Below, piece by piece: positions 15,493-21,621 of a stretch of DNA of 64,000 bases (positions are counted from its first letter, which is position 1; the number at the start of each line of letters is the position of its first letter). The notes beneath the pieces were generated by a model. That model saw nothing but the letters and a program-made list of their open reading frames with translations, had not been told where the DNA came from and did not search any database. The DNA lies in the NCBI RefSeq assembly GCF_004564075.1, contig NZ_CP038256.1, forward strand, positions 1,922,001 through 1,986,000, written 5' to 3'. Made by a program: the position numbers and the translations under genes. The stretch comes from Microbacterium sediminis (GTDB lineage Bacteria; Actinomycetota; Actinomycetes; Actinomycetales; Microbacteriaceae).

Positions 15493-16416
15493 TCACTGCT
15501 GCCGCAGCAGCCAGACGAGCAGGGCCTTCTGCGCGTGCAGGCGGTTCTCCGCCTCGTCCCAGATCACGCTCTGCGGCCCGTCGATCACGTCGGCGTCGAC
15601 CTCGTACCCGCGATCGGCGGGGAGGCAGTGGATGAAGATCGCGGCGGGATCGGCGACCGACATCGTCTCCTGGGTCACCTTGTAGGCGCCGAGGTCGCGC
15701 AGGCGAGCGAGCTTCTCCTCCTCCTTGCCCATCGAGACCCACGTGTCGGTGACGACCACGTCTGCCCCCGCGGCGGCCTCGAGGGGGTCGGTGTAGAGCG
15801 TGACGGAGCCGCCCGTCTCGGCGGCGATCCGGTCGGCGTCGGCGACCACGTCCTCGCGGGGCGCGTAGTCCTCGGGCGAGGCCACGCGCACGTGCATGCC
15901 GGCCATCGCGCCGGCCAGCGCGTACGAGTGGGCCATGTTGCTGCGCCCGTCGCCGAAGAACGACAGCGTCAGCCCCTTCAGCTCGCCCTTGTGCTCGCGG
16001 ATCGTGAGCAGGTCGGCCAGCAGCTGGCAGGGGTGGAAGTCGTCGGAGAGCGCGTTGATGACCGGCACGCGGGTGCCCTCGGCCATCTCCTCGAGCCCGG
16101 CCTGCGCGTAGGTGCGCCACACGATCGCGGCGACCTGGCGCTCGAGCACCCGCGCGGTGTCGGCCGGCGTCTCCTTGCCGCCGAGCTGACTGCTGGCGGT
16201 GGAGATGATCAGCGGCGTGCCACCGAGATCGGCGATCCCGACCGCGAACGACACCCGGGTGCGGGTGGACGACTTGTCGAAGATCACCGCCACGGTCTGC
16301 GGGCCCTCGAGCGGGCGCTGCGACCACCGGTCGGCCTTCAGCTGCGCGGCGAGATCGAGGATCTCGGCCTGCTCGGCCGGGGTGATGCTGTCGTCGCGCA
16401 GGAAGTGGCGAGTCAT
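15493..16416 (-). CDS. argF: ornithine carbamoyltransferase
   Basis: A 307-residue enzyme making citrulline from ornithine and carbamoyl phosphate. The carbamoyl-phosphate loop STRTR is at 50-54, with the later HPCQ motif in [12 protein letters not shown] and the ornithine-loop HCLPADRG near residue 265. ATG 16416 overlaps the argD stop (ATGA); longer upstream reading in this frame is the shadow of argD. It is translationally coupled within the argC-J-B-D-F run. Confidence 0.97.
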
Positions 16417-17618
16417 GCGGGGATCTCCTGGGTCTGCGCGACGGCGGCGAGCGCCTCGCGGAAGAGGTTGAGGAACTCGTCGATCTCGGCGTCGCCGATC
16501 GTGTAGGCCGGCGCGAGGCGGATCACGTCGGCCGCCGGGGCGTTGACGATCAGGCCGCGCTCGAGCGCCGCGGCGGCGACCTGCGGCGCGACCGGCTCCT
16601 CGAGCGTCACGCCGATGAGCAGGCCGGCGCCGCGCGTGCCCGAGACGATCGGGTACTCCGCGACCGCGGCGCGCAGCTGGTCGCCGCGGGCGGTCACGTT
16701 GGCCAGCAGGTCCTCGCTCTCGATGAAGCCCAGCACCGCGTCGGCGACGTGGCTGGCGAGCGGGTTGCCGCCGAACGTGGAGTTGTGCGTGCCGGGCGAG
16801 AACAGCTCGCTCGCCGCGCCGAACGTGATCAGCCCGCCGAGCGGGAAGCCGGCGGCGACGCCCTTGGCGAAGGTCACCGCGTCGGGCACGACGTCGGTGT
16901 GCTGGAAGGCGAACCACCGCCCCGTGCGCCCCGAGCCGGTCTGCACCTCGTCGAGGATGAGCAGCGCGTCGTGCGCGGTCGCGAGCTCGCGCGCCCGGGC
17001 GAGGAAGCGCTCGGGCAGCTCGCGCACGCCGGCCTCGCCCTGGATCGGCTCGATCACGATGGCCGCCACGCCGCCCTCCGCGAACGCGGCCTCGAGCGCC
17101 TCGATCGTGACGGGGATCGCCTTCGCGCCCGGCAGCAGCGGCGCGAAGGGATCCTGGTAGGCGGCCTTGGGCGTGAGCGACAGCGCGCCCGTGGTGCGGC
17201 CGTGGAACGCGCCCTCGAGGCAGAGGATCGTCTGCGCGCCGCGCGGGTTGCCGTGCAGCCGCGCGAGCTTGATCGCCGACTCGTTGGCCTCGCTGCCGGA
17301 GTTGGCCAGGAACACCCGGCCCTGCTCGCCCGTGCCGGCGAGGCGCTTCAGCCGCGCGGCGAGCGCGAGCTGCGGCTCGGACGTGTAGAGGTTCGACACG
17401 TGCGCGAGGGTCGCGGCCTGGCGCGAGACCGCCTCGACGAACACGGGGTGGGCGTGCCCGAGGCAGTTCACCGCGATGCCGCCGAGGAAGTCGAGGTAGC
17501 GGGTGCCCTCGTCGTCCCACAGGTGGGACCCCTCGCCCCGCACGAACAGTCGCGGACGGCTCCCGAGGTTCATGAGGTCGCGCTCGGCGGCCACCTTCCA
17601 TTCGATGCTGCTGCTCAT
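16413..17618 (-). CDS. argD: acetylornithine aminotransferase
   Basis: A 401-residue class III PLP aminotransferase converting N-acetylglutamate semialdehyde to N-acetylornithine. The PLP lysine is K252 in [28 protein letters not shown] and [15 protein letters not shown] are the family motifs. ATG 17618 overlaps the argB stop by four bases. In many bacteria this enzyme also serves as the DAP-pathway succinyl-DAP transaminase, which may matter given the dap genes nearby; that is inference. Confidence 0.96.
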
Positions 17619-18517
17619 GCCACGACCTCCGTTCCGATTCCCTCACTGGTGAACAGTTCCACGAGCACCGAGTGCGGCACCCGCCCGTCGATGATCGACG
17701 CCTTCTCGACCCCACCCTCGACCGCGTCGAGGCAGGCCTGCATCTTGGGGATCATCCCCGACTCGAGCTTCGGCATGAGCTCGCGCAGCTCGGCCGCCCG
17801 CAGGTGCGAGACGAGCGAGTCGCGGCGCGGCCAGTCGGCGTAGAGCCCCGGCACGTCGGTGAGGATGACGAGCTTCTTGGCCCCCAGCGCCCGCGCGAGC
17901 GCGGAGGCCGCGGCGTCCGCGTTGATGTTGAGCGTCTGCCCGGGGCGATCGAGGTCGGGGGCCACGCCGGCGACGACGGGGATGCGATCGGCCTTGAGGT
18001 GATCGATCACCGGCGTCGGATCCACCTGCACCACGTCGCCCACGCGGCCGAGGCTCTCCTCGACGCCGTCGATCACGACGCCGCGGCGGCGGCCGCCGAA
18101 CAGGGCCGCGTCCTCGCCGGACAGGCCCACGGCGAAGGGGCCGTGCGAGTTGATCTTCGCCACGAGCTGCGGGTTGATCTGGCCCGTCAGCACCATCCGC
18201 ACCACCGAGATCGCCTCGGTCGAGGTGACGCGGTAGCCGCCCTTGAACTCGCTCGGGATGGCGAGGCGATCGAGCATGTTCGAGATCTGCGGGCCGCCGC
18301 CGTGCACGACCACGGGCTTGATGCCCACGTAGCGCAGGTAGGCGATGTCCTCCGCGAAGGCGTCCTGCAGCTCCTCGCTGATCATCGCGTTGCCGCCGTA
18401 CTTGACGACGACGATCTGGTCGCGGAACTGCTTGAGCCACGGCAGCGACTCGATGAGCGTGGTCGCCTTGAAGGCCGCCTGCTCGGGCGTGGTCTGCTGG
18501 AGATCGATCTCGCTCAT
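17615..18517 (-). CDS. argB: acetylglutamate kinase
   Basis: A 300-residue amino acid kinase that phosphorylates N-acetylglutamate and is usually the arginine-inhibited step. Motifs include [22 protein letters not shown] and the C-terminal [25 protein letters not shown] split around the active site. The N-terminal helix before residue 35 is the kind found in hexameric, arginine-sensitive enzymes. ATG 18517 overlaps the argJ stop (ATGA). Confidence 0.96.
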
Positions 18518-19671
18518 GAGCTGTAGGCGCTGTTCTCGTGGACGTACGCGTGGGTGAGGTCGTTCGTCATGATGGTCGCCGTCTCCTCGCCCGAGAACAG
18601 GTCGATCTCGATGGTCGTGGCCCGCGGCGTGAGGTCGACCTCCTCGCGCGGACGGTCGGGACCGCCCTGCGTGCACACGCGCACGCCGTTCATCCAGACG
18701 TCCACGTTGTAGGGGTCGAACTCGGCGCTCGTCGTGCCGATCGCGGCGAGCACGCGCCCCCAGTTGGGGTCGTTGCCGAAGATCGCGGTCTTGAAGAGGC
18801 TGTTGCGGGCCAGCGCGCGGCCCACCTCGACGGCGTCGTCCTCGGTGGCTGCCCCGCGCACGTGGATCGAGATCTCGTGGCTGGCTCCCTCCGCGTCGGC
18901 CATGAGCTGCGTGGCGAGATCCCGGCACACGTCGGTGAGCGCGGCGCGGAACGCCTCCGGCTCCGGCTCGACCCCCGAGGCGCCGCTCGCGAGGAGGGTG
19001 ACCTGGTCGTTGGTCGACATCGCGCCGTCGGAGTCGAGGCGATCGAACGTCACCCGGGTGGCCGCGCGCAGGTGCGCGTCGGCCTGCTCCGGCGTGAGCA
19101 CGGCATCGGTGGTCAGCACGACGAGCATCGTGGCCAGCGCCGGCGCGAGCATGCCCGCGCCCTTCGCCATGCCGCCGATCGTCCAGCCGTCGCCCGCGAA
19201 CGTCGCGGTCTTGGGCACGGTGTCGGTCGTCATGATCGCCTCCGCCGCGGCGGGGCCGCCGTCGGCGCTCAGCTGCGCGATCGCGGTCTCGGTGCCCGCG
19301 AGCACCTTGGCGCGGAAGGCCTCGTCGCCCGTGCCGATCAGCCCGGTCGAGCACACGAGCACATCGCCGGCGCTGACGCCCAGGAGCTCGGCCGCCTTCT
19401 CGGCGGTCTGGTGCGTGGTCTGGAAGCCGAACGAACCCGTGAAGCAGTTGGCGCCGCCCGAGTTGAGCACGATCGCCTCGACGGCGCCGTCCGCGATGGC
19501 CTGCTGCGACCACAGGATCGGGTTGGCCTTGGCGCGGTTGCTCGTGAACACCGCCGCGCCCGTCTTGAGCGGGCCGCGGTTGACCACGACGGCGACGTCG
19601 GGCTTGCCCGTCGACTTCAGTCCGGCCGCGACTCCGGTCGCCTCGAATCCTGCGGGGGCGGTCACGCTCAC
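18514..19671 (-). CDS. argJ: glutamate N-acetyltransferase / amino-acid acetyltransferase
   Basis: A 385-residue self-cleaving ornithine acetyltransferase that recycles the acetyl group, so the cyclic arginine pathway is used. The autocleavage nucleophile is T181 in the ALATMLV motif after KGAGMLAP. I chose GTG 19671, which overlaps the argC stop (GTGA), giving the expected N-terminus [19 protein letters not shown]. Confidence 0.96.
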
Positions 19672-20711
19672 GGCGCCACTCCGTTCACTGAGAGCGCGGT
19701 GCCTTCCGGCAGGCCCAGCGCGAGGTTCATGGACTGGATCGCGGCGCCCGCGGTCCCCTTGGTGAGGTTGTCGACCGCCGTGACGACGACGACGCGGCCC
19801 GCCGCGCGATCGATCGCGAGCCCCATCAGCGCCGTGTTGGCGCCGAGCACGTCGGCCGTGCGGGGCATCTGGCCCTCCGGGAGCAGCTGCACGAAGGTCT
19901 CGTCGCCGTACGCGGCCTCCCACGCGTCGCGGATCTGCGCGTCCGTCGCTCCGGCCGCGATCGGCGCGGTGCTCGTGGCGAGGATGCCGCGGGCCATGGG
20001 GACGATCACGGGCGTGAACGAGATGCGCGGGTCCGCGGCGCCGGCGGCGCGCAGCGCCTGCTGGATCTCGGGGATGTGCCGGTGGCTGCCGCCGACGGCG
20101 TACGGGTTGGCGGTGCCGAGGATCTCGCTGCCCAGCAGGTGCGGCTTGAGGCTCTTGCCCGCGCCCGAGGGGCCCACGGCGAGCACGCTCACGATGTCGC
20201 CCGCGTCGATGACGCCCGCGGCCACGCCGGGGGCGAGGCTCAGCGACACCGTCGAGGCGTTGCAGCCGGGGGCCGCGATGCGCGTCGCGCCGCGCAGCCT
20301 CTCGCGCTGCTTGCCGCCGTCGACGAGCAGCTCGGGCACGCCGTACGCCCACGGCTCGTGGAAGTCGCCGCCGTAGAACGCGTCCCAGTCGGCCCGGGCG
20401 GTGAGGCGGTGGTCGGCGCCGGCGTCGATCACGAGCGCCGCGTCGCCGAGCGCGTCGGTGTACTGACCCGACTGCCCGTGCGGCAGCGCGAGGAAGACGA
20501 CGTCGTGGCCGGCGAGGACCTCCGGGGTGGTCGGCTGCAGCTGCAGGTGGCGCAGCGAGCGCAGGTGCGGCTGGTGGGCGATGAGCGGATCGCCCGCGTG
20601 CGAGTGGGCCGTGACGGTGCGGATCTCGATGTCGGGATGATCGGCCAGCAGGCGCAGGATCTCCCCGCCCGCGTAGCCAGATGCGCCGGAGACGGCGACC
20701 GAATAGGTCAT
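19668..20711 (-). CDS. argC: N-acetyl-gamma-glutamyl-phosphate reductase
   Basis: A 347-residue NADPH-dependent reductase, first gene of the argCJBDF run. The N-terminal [14 protein letters not shown] is the Rossmann dinucleotide loop and C150 in AAPGCNAST is the catalytic cysteine. ATG 20711 follows AAGG (10 bases upstream) and also has TAAGGT seven bases before it (20719-20724), so either a weak ribosome site or a leaderless start is possible. The 84 bp before it hold a nested hairpin and an arginine-rich ORF. Confidence 0.96.
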
Positions 20712-20724
20712 GACTTCTACCTTA

Positions 20725-20774
20725 TGTCCGTGGGAATGGGTGCCTGATCACGGGCGGCACCGCTCCCCCGGACA
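20725..20774 (-). promoter_or_regulatory. nested hairpin before argC (candidate attenuation element)
   Basis: On the minus strand the outer arms TGTCCG (20774-20769) and CGGACA (20730-20725) enclose GGGGA/TTCCC and an inner 6-bp stem GGTGCC/GGCACC (20761-20756 with 20744-20739), loop 11 nt. The 3' base abuts the AAGG that precedes argC. No T run follows, so control of translation or of an actinobacterial-type terminator are both conceivable. Confidence 0.5.
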
Positions 20775-20795
20775 CGCCGGAACGTCGCGGGCCGC

Positions 20796-20876
20796 CTAGA
20801 TTCGGCGGGCGCGCGGACGTCGGAGCGCGACGGTGCGGCTCGGAACGAGCGGCACATCCATCGCGGTCGAGGTCAT
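20796..20876 (-). CDS. candidate arginine-rich leader peptide of the arg operon
   Basis: A 26-codon ORF whose second half is unusually arginine-rich: six Arg codons (CGC, CGA, CGT, CGC, CGC, CGA) at residues 14, 19, 20, 22, 24 and 25, in SRTVALRRPRARRI. It stops 84 bp before argC. There is no Shine-Dalgarno, but TAGCCT lies seven bases before the ATG (20884-20889), fitting a leaderless start. Length, position and enrichment in the end product of the downstream operon are those of an attenuator leader peptide. Chance is possible because the genome is rich in CG codons. Confidence 0.5.
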   Translation of the reverse strand: MTSTAMDVPLVPSRTVALRRPRARRI

Positions 20877-20883
20877 GTGCGGC

Positions 20884-20889
20884 AGGCTA
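20884..20889 (-). promoter_or_regulatory. -10 element of the putative arg leader transcript
   Basis: TAGCCT on the minus strand, seven bases before the ATG of the leader ORF. No good -35 is visible at the usual distance. A stretch of 235 bp (20712-20946) separates argC from divergent pcm and contains only these leader elements. Confidence 0.45.
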
Positions 20890-20946
20890 GCACGGCGCCT
20901 GTTCCCGACGCGACGCCGCGCGTACCGTGGATCGCGGGGTGTGCTC

Positions 20947-21621
20947 ATGACGGGGTTCTCGCCGACGGCGTCCTCGCCGCACGCGGCGGCGCGGGCGCGG
21001 GCGCGGATGATCGACCGGCACCTGCGGGCGCGCGGCATCCGCGACGCGCGCGTGCTGGACGCGATGGCACGCGTGCCGCGGGAGCTGTTCGTGCCCGATC
21101 ACCTCGCCGGCGAGGCCTACGCCGATGCGCCCCTGCCGATCGGGCACGGCCAGACGATCTCGCAGCCGTACATCGTGGCCCTCACGGCGGAGGCGGCGCG
21201 CCTCTCCCCCGGCGATCGCGTGCTCGACGTCGGCACCGGGTCCGGCTACGCCGCCGCCGTGTACGCCGCGATGGGCGCGGAGGTGTGGTCGGTGGAGCTC
21301 GTGCCCGAGCTCGCGGGGCGGGCGCGCGAGGCGCTCCCGCGCGCGGGGTTCGCGCACGTGACGGTCGTCACGGCCGACGGCTCGCTCGGCCTGCCCGCGC
21401 GGGCGCCCTTCGACGCGATCCTCGCGGCCGCCGCAGGCGCGGAGATCCCGCCGCCCTGGCTCGCCCAGCTCGCGGACGGCGGGCGCATCGTGCTGCCCGT
21501 GGAGCGCCACGCCGGCTGGCAGCGCCTGCTGCGCGTGACCCGCCGCGGCGAGCGCGAGGAGCGCGAGGACCTGGGCGCGGTGCGCTTCGTGCCGCTGCGC
21601 GGCGCGCACGGTCGGCGCTGA
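20947..21621 (+). CDS. pcm: protein-L-isoaspartate O-methyltransferase
   Basis: A 224-residue SAM-dependent methyltransferase that repairs isoaspartyl residues. Family motifs are MIDRHLRARGIRDARVLDAMARVPRELFVP near the start, GHGQTISQPYIVALT, and the SAM loop VLDVGTGSGYAAAVYA. ATG 20947 is preferred; an in-frame GTG at 20941 is possible, and the frame is open back to 20833 but that part overlaps the arg leader on the other strand. It is divergent from argC and followed by the AAA ATPase 37 bp downstream. Confidence 0.9.
   Translation: MTGFSPTASSPHAAARARARMIDRHLRARGIRDARVLDAMARVPRELFVPDHLAGEAYADAPLPIGHGQTISQPYIVALTAEAARLSPGDRVLDVGTGSGYAAAVYAAMGAEVWSVELVPELAGRAREALPRAGFAHVTVVTADGSLGLPARAPFDAILAAAAGAEIPPPWLAQLADGGRIVLPVERHAGWQRLLRVTRRGEREEREDLGAVRFVPLRGAHGRR

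Follow-up and report, generated by a model that had tools for sequence, protein, structure and literature searches.

ArgR control of bacterial arginine synthesis is a textbook case, and repression through ArgR and the ARG box acts on the same operon, and in response to the same signal, as the leader analyzed here. ArgR (PF01316, TIGR01529) is, however, a protein repressor, and it was not found in the Microbacteriaceae, the family of Microbacterium sediminis and of Leifsonia xyli. An upstream ORF (uORF) also places an arginine gene under arginine control in fungi; there, in eukaryotes, stalling by the arginine attenuator peptide depends on the peptide sequence and occurs at high arginine.

Polycysteine leaderless uORFs have reportedly been described in mycobacteria (by Canestrari et al. 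in 2020), and by analogy they appear to be the nearest relatives of the arginine leader: each is a short ORF of an actinobacterium, leaderless in mycobacteria and predicted to be so here, with a run of codons for one amino acid upstream of the genes for that amino acid. Here the amino acid is arginine and the gene argC, not cysteine, no ArgR was found in the family, and the leader contains a predicted set of covarying helices, 1-2-3-4. Part of an earlier report also concerns mycobacterial leaderless uORFs (Shell et al. 2015, PMC4633059).

The trp/ilv-type attenuators of Actinobacteria, as presented in parts of two accounts (Seliverstov et al. 2005, PMC1262725; M. tuberculosis ilvB1, PMC13236596), resemble this leader in having regulatory codons in a leader peptide and hairpins that exclude one another, but the arginine leader has no U-tract, its last hairpin precedes the Shine-Dalgarno sequence (SD), its uORF is predicted to be leaderless and its amino acid is arginine. 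According to one part of the 2005 survey, the regions in front of arginine operons showed no conserved RNA structures; the portion of its genome list that was examined includes Leifsonia xyli (PMC1262725). No other member of the Microbacteriaceae appears there. The section of a report on the Salmonella speF leader, with its Arg codons, has arginine level likewise acting through leader mRNA; speF, by contrast, is a polyamine gene, in another phylum, with another RNA (PMC6386406). No argC motif is named in part of a structured-RNA survey (PMC8632094). A search made largely of open-access papers turned up no account of an arginine attenuator from the Microbacteriaceae or from any other Actinobacteria.

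The window, meaning the whole stretch of 64,000 nucleotides of M. sediminis DNA that was analyzed, contains the argCJBDF operon on its minus strand (Table 1). Upstream of argC we found a leader which probably acts as an arginine-responsive, ribosome-mediated attenuator with a leaderless uORF, controlling argCJBDF in a family without detected ArgR. The nearest relatives of this argC, among the best 80 of 350, are from Microbacterium, with 92% identity at best. The argG gene is located far from the operon (C1:84597-85817 in the same genome); TAGGCT stands 7 nt 5' of its ATG, and no Arg-rich uORF was found in about 350 nt upstream from it.

Table 1. Operon and leader features on the M. sediminis window
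Feature	Position	Strand	Remarks
TAGCCT, -10-like box, proposed leaderless promoter P1	20884..20889	minus	ends 7 nt 5' of uORF ATG
Leader peptide uORF, MTSTAMDVPLVPSRTVALRRPRARRI	20796..20876	minus	26 codons + TAG, Arg crowded at 3' end; ATG at 20876, TAG at 20796 by direct reading
Segment 1, CCGCC around last two Arg codons (CGC CGA)	20804..20808	minus	can pair with segment 2
Segment 2, GGCGGC CCGC, from last base of uORF stop	20787..20796	minus	GGCG invariant in 69/69
Segment 3, GCGG T GCCGCC	20753..20763	minus	pairs with segment 2 (proposed ON); overlaps 5' side of 3:4
3:4 hairpin, proposed OFF structure	20724..20775	minus	last paired base directly against AAGG in the window
AAGG, argC Shine-Dalgarno	20720..20723	minus	inside TAAGGT 20719-20724, possible -10 box P2
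argC	19668..20711	minus	first gene of argCJBDF
argJ	18514..19671	minus	NF003802
argB	17615..18514	minus	TIGR00761
argD	16413..17618	minus	NF002874
argF, putative start	15493..16437	minus	ornithine carbamoyltransferase domains PF00185 and PF02729 in frame 15493-16500

A preliminary description of this DNA had reported an ORF of 26 codons ending 84 bp before argC, with six Arg codons among its last 13 residues and TAGCCT seven bases 5' of its ATG. Reading of the minus strand bears out each of these points: the six codons are CGC, CGA, CGT, CGC, CGC and CGA, and 84 nt separate the uORF stop from the argC ATG. The operon thus has, 5' of its first gene, a short ORF in which codons for its end product abound, as expected of an attenuator. 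The uORF transcript would begin at the ATG itself, judging by the TANNNT at 6-7 nt (73/76 loci, see below). A TTG -35 motif was found at the uORF promoters of 85/136 loci, and none at P1 in the window. On the opposite strand a divergent protein-L-isoaspartate O-methyltransferase-like frame (PF01135; 20800-21621, plus) overlaps the uORF region if a far-upstream start is used; its PF01135 domain starts near 21007.

For the analysis of conservation, the best 80 of 350 argC relatives, together referred to as the Microbacterium group, were from 76 Microbacterium, one Frigoribacterium (L002) and three Actinomycetota bacterium MAGs (L039, L059, L066). Besides the M. sediminis genome, 109 upstream regions of the family were used, 29 from a family-wide argC search and 80 further ones. 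A strict filter, which required an Arg-rich uORF within a limit of 240 nt and a TANNNT 5-8 nt 5' of the uORF start, was applied to 190 upstream regions (81 of the Microbacterium group, 109 others) and was passed by 136, that is 79 and 57. L082 is a Microbacterium genome (G034), yet it was tallied among the other genera in the filter, fold, argC-box, codon and -35 counts. In the Microbacterium group (80 fetched regions and the window) 79/81 loci passed. The two that failed are L015, whose ORF, preceded by TACTGT 6 nt 5' of its ATG, lies just beyond the 240-nt limit, and L041, for which 52 nt of upstream sequence were available. Across the family, argC was found in 143/150 genomes and 81/85 genera. 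The strict filter detected the leaderless Arg uORF in 39 of these 81 sampled genera, Microbacterium included, and no genus was mixed; in the remaining 42/81 the leader was missing by this filter, nor was any ArgR found there.

ATG ORFs with at least five Arg in nine codons were present in 73/80 regions of the Microbacterium group (79 loci and the window), in 44/108 other Microbacteriaceae loci and in 2/40 argC upstream regions from other families of the order, the last value being close to the 3.5-4.5% at which shuffled upstream regions yield such ORFs. When ORFs of 14-60 codons starting with ATG or GTG were chosen by Arg content only, the counts were 76/80, 54/108 and 3/40; L041 and L082 were left out of both comparisons. 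TANNNT was found 6-7 nt before the in-frame start of 73/76 of the chosen ORFs in the Microbacterium group, against 7/270 for other ATG or GTG codons of the same regions, and of 42/54 in other Microbacteriaceae, against a background of 20/453. None of the three Arg ORFs from other families had it (0/3). The peptides of the Microbacterium group commonly end in RRRR-x-RR-L-stop. The upstream regions had a GC content of about 71%, against 67% for argC upstream regions of families with ArgR.

A search with PF01316 returned no ArgR in 59 genomes of the genus Microbacterium, nor in any of 150 Microbacteriaceae genomes from 85 genera, and matched 110/111 genomes from other families of the order; the single negative genome among the 111 measures 0.8 Mb, and argC was not found in it either. 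With TIGR01529, 0/40 exceeded the cut-off and 11/40 gave weak partial matches (best E 0.055). Controls, among them C. glutamicum and E. coli, matched. The earlier remark that no argR lies in the cluster can therefore be widened to the whole M. sediminis genome, which has no ArgR match. Membership of the operon in an ArgR regulon was rejected, no ArgR having been found in this genome or in the family sample. The leader and the absence of ArgR are not perfectly tied, because the leader occurs in just about half of the genera.

Codon choice in the uORFs was compared with that of argC; usage from seven frames of the window was excluded from these claims because two of the frames are unverified genes. 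Among 1320 Arg codons in argC of 80 Microbacterium-group loci, CGA made up 2.2%, CGT 9.2% and CGG 25.4%, so that the first of the two codons singled out in the preliminary description is rare and the second uncommon. CGG accounted for 2.3% of Arg codons in the uORFs of the Microbacterium group (79 loci, 517 codons) and 7.9% in the others (57 loci, 441 codons), and 94/136 uORFs had no CGG at all. Within the 19 uORF-bearing loci of L082-L110, which are related to each other, CGG reached 9.2% in the uORF and 27.8% in argC (Fisher p 4e-6). Over the 136 loci the uORFs strongly avoid CGG and are enriched in CGA, compared with argC. The M. sediminis genome gave 45 tRNA matches, of which 36 could be typed, including one each for the Arg anticodons ACG, CCG, CCT and TCT; the nine matches without type were 82-90 bases long. 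We take tRNA-Arg(ACG), as ICG, to read CGC, CGT and CGA, and CGG to be read by another tRNA.

The leader RNA appears to have a 1-2-3-4 layout, made up of the Arg codons (1), GGCG at the uORF end or slightly 5' of it (2), a GCC block (3) and the arm that precedes the argC SD (4). It has two overlapping helices, 2:3 and 3:4, both of which show covariation. The 5-bp stem straddling the uORF stop that had been proposed (CCGCC/GGCGG, 20808-20804/20796-20792) is present, as are both arms of the proposed nested hairpin, the outer TGTCCG/CGGACA (20774-20769/20730-20725) and the inner GGTGCC/GGCACC (20761-20756/20744-20739). Helix 2:3, formed by 20796-20787 with 20763-20753, comes in addition to them. 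Compared with dinucleotide shuffles, the whole leader fold had a z of -3.9 and the SD-proximal 3:4 hairpin (-31.4 kcal/mol) a z of -4.6, with 0/200 shuffles as stable in either case.

Three of the 136 loci (L115, L162, L181) lack an AGG where one is expected and were omitted from the duplex, RNAalifold, masking, alignment and 3:4 permutation tests. Of the 133 remaining leaders, 69 were aligned after those longer than 165 nt or at least 82% similar were dropped: 30 from the Microbacterium group, L082 included, and 39 from other genera. In this alignment, A1, the row of the window is one column off at segment 3. The invariant blocks in the 69 leaders are CGA, GGCG, a downstream GCC and the second A of AAGG. 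The CGA is in frame with the uORF in 69/69. In 47/69 GGCG starts on the final base of the uORF stop, and in 22/69 GGCG lies inside the uORF; masking geometry is therefore different in those.

The core of helix 2:3 is GGCG-AC paired with GT-CGCC. Over its 11 pairs, 83.2% of cells can pair, against 79.6% after shuffling; double-change cells numbered 33 against 16.5 +/- 3.3 (0/500 shuffles), and the covariation score was 0.156 against 0.109 (0/500). On all five measures the given register did better than registers shifted by 1-3 columns. Pairs showing a double change numbered 7 against 5.7, which is not unusual (38/500). In helix 3:4 the partner of the arm that precedes AAGG is located at the GCC block or immediately 5' of it, examples being GAGTGGGCG/CGCCCACTC, GCTGTGCGGGG/TTCCGCACAGC and CGTGAGCGG/CCGCTCACG. 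A contiguous-helix permutation over 65 of the 69 leaders (in the rest the core motif was not found or the loop exceeded 60) gave 14.4 for own pairs and 12.7 for permuted ones (z 5.4, 0/2000); relatedness among the leaders stays in both this test and the covariation shuffles. For several of the 65 loci, 3:4 has no more than 3-4 bp. Segments 1 and 2 can pair in most loci; segment 1 hardly varies, and the duplex test gave no covariation support for helix 1:2.

That coarse test, made on whole segments of 133 loci, returned p 0.001 for 2:3, 0.06 for 3:4 and 0.8 for 1:2; for other genera it gave p 0.98 for 3:4, and p 0.008 in the opposite direction for the control 1:3. Being too diffuse in GC-rich RNA, it was replaced by the alignment counts and the contiguous-helix permutation. 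RNAalifold found four nearly invariant pairs without covariation on A1, and little beyond the 2:3 core on mixed alignments. Prediction and covariation together point to mutually exclusive helices, placed such that a ribosome on the control codons and one at the stop codon would favour different ones; the stop overlaps segment 2 in 47/69 leaders. Short ORF, Arg run, leaderless spacing and competing stems are all conserved within the Microbacterium group and in roughly half of the Microbacteriaceae genera sampled, and do not exceed the shuffled rate in ArgR-bearing families; such conservation, which the preliminary description had asked for in relatives, supports its reading of the architecture as ribosome-mediated attenuation.

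A covariance model (R1) built on the 69 leaders found one site at E <= 1 in the M. sediminis genome. Among 85 genera, one genome each, there were 39 sites at E <= 3e-4, and 39/39 abut argC; 14 of the 39 are outside the training set (G059, G060, G062, G067, G081, G089, G093, G101, G108, G111, G121, G124, G127, G134), some of these being close to training members. The next match, at G059:C1:2115868-2115981 on the minus strand (E about 7e-4; 6.8e-4), is not at argC. In an order-wide sample of 99 genomes, R1 matched 7/7 Microbacteriaceae and 0/92 others at E <= 0.01; the seven comprise five Microbacterium and a pair from a single other genus, no fewer than four of the seven are in the training set, and one match (G298) is at a contig end, apart from argC.

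Folding of the window, with segment 2 unmasked, gave 2:3 as the best structure as long as segment 4 had not been transcribed; once segment 4 is made, 3:4 is more stable than 2:3 by 2.2 kcal/mol, even though segment 2 is free to pair. A kinetic switch is plausible on these models; an equilibrium switch would favour OFF. Two-state folds were compared for 129/133 loci, no GGCG being found in four. With segment 2 masked, local pairing of the pre-SD region rose both in the Microbacterium group (0.41 to 0.58) and in the others (0.21 to 0.49), and SD access hardly shifted between the two states (0.48 to 0.45 and 0.43 to 0.39, respectively). The 3:4 hairpin abuts AAGG in the window, unlike in the 65 relatives, where the best contiguous arm ends at a median of 10 nt 5' of it. 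No U-tract (TTTT, or five T in 6 nt) was found within 60 nt of argC in any of 136 loci, which agrees with the lack of a T-rich terminator noted earlier and rules out a classical trp-type transcription attenuator. Control is therefore probably exerted on translation, through a hindered 30S landing site, or by a U-less or Rho-dependent stop, translation being favoured. A search of Rfam with 20500-21100 of the window gave one match (E 1.9), below the gathering score and outside the leader, and a known T-box or riboswitch was rejected.

These observations suggest the following model. The P1 transcript would start at the uORF ATG, where ribosomes would load without an SD. With ample Arg-tRNA, the ribosome would pass the Arg codons and reach the TAG, which overlaps segment 2, masking it; segments 3 and 4 would then pair into a strong hairpin before the AAGG of argC, and either argC initiation would be hindered or RNA polymerase, or Rho, would end the transcript. 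Under arginine shortage the ribosome would stall on the Arg run and cover segment 1, so that segment 2 could pair with segment 3 before segment 4 is made; 3:4 would be delayed or prevented, and argC expressed. If the uORF is not translated, 1:2 and 3:4 would both form, giving the OFF state.

The TAAGGT before argC, which the preliminary description counted against its own reading, contains the SD of argC and may double as a second leaderless promoter, P2. If argC were transcribed chiefly from there, the leader would have little control, a possibility that we consider real though unlikely. TAAGGT stands 5-8 nt before argC in 78/79 uORF-bearing loci of the Microbacterium group and in 42/57 others; an SD does not need the T after AAGG, and the near-constancy of this T suggests that the sequence may also serve as a -10 box. 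Some uORFs have TAAGGT as their own -10, and TANNNT is found at argC in 35/52 uORF-less loci. In uORF-less Microbacteriaceae such as L100, L113, L127 and L152, argC itself looks leaderless, with TAGATT or TACATT 6 nt 5' of the start. Beyond the Microbacterium group, however, AAGG precedes argC in 51/57 uORF-bearing loci, nine of them without TANNNT (two loci show the reverse and four have neither), against 9/52 uORF-less loci, 32/52 of which have TANNNT without AAGG; AAGG therefore accompanies the leader, and a leaderless-type argC accompanies its absence. A TTG -35 was found at 1/123 argC-proximal boxes, against the 85/136 for P1, but also at 0/32 argC promoters of uORF-less loci, so the -35 test cannot settle the matter of P2. 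Transcription from P2 would moreover leave the conserved Arg run and the covarying helices unexplained.

Other readings accept the leader and differ in what it senses. A translated uORF with a hairpin near the SD would suffice to couple argC to general ribosome traffic, so that translation stress and not arginine is sensed. This seems improbable to us, given that Arg is the commonest residue at 7/8 of the last run positions in the Microbacterium group (-7 to -3, -1 and 0, the last by construction), that CGC, CGA and CGT interchange at run positions, that CGG is avoided, and that the product of the operon is arginine. Alternatively, the nascent Arg-rich peptide could arrest the ribosome on binding free arginine, like the fungal peptide; the N-terminal half is loosely alike within the Microbacterium group, but from one genus to another the peptide varies freely except in the Arg run, and stalling on the Arg codons at high arginine would, with the helices found, switch on argC, the opposite of what a biosynthetic operon needs. 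We regard this as very improbable. The worry, voiced earlier, that Arg codons are common in GC-rich DNA would make the frame and the hairpins products of chance. The GC content of the upstream regions and the yield of Arg-rich ORFs from shuffles give it some ground; it is contradicted by conservation well above that yield and by ArgR-family regions, which stay at the shuffled rate and, with GTG starts admitted, have no ORF preceded by TANNNT. Chance is hardly credible as an explanation.

The arginine attenuator remains the reading that we prefer. There is about an even chance that its wider form also holds, namely that the whole family is devoid of ArgR and that some half of its sampled genera use a leaderless attenuator, working without a U-tract, which reads the charging of one tRNA (nearly all uORF Arg codons are CGC, CGT or CGA, read by tRNA-Arg(ACG), and CGG is avoided). 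The choice of codons in the leader offers a direct test of selective tRNA charging, the theory of which is set out in part of an earlier work (PMC1183508). In the Microbacteriaceae, where no ArgR was found, the leader device would do the work of the repressor; if this is true, about half of the sampled genera present a natural case of an RNA attenuator on argC standing in for a protein repressor.
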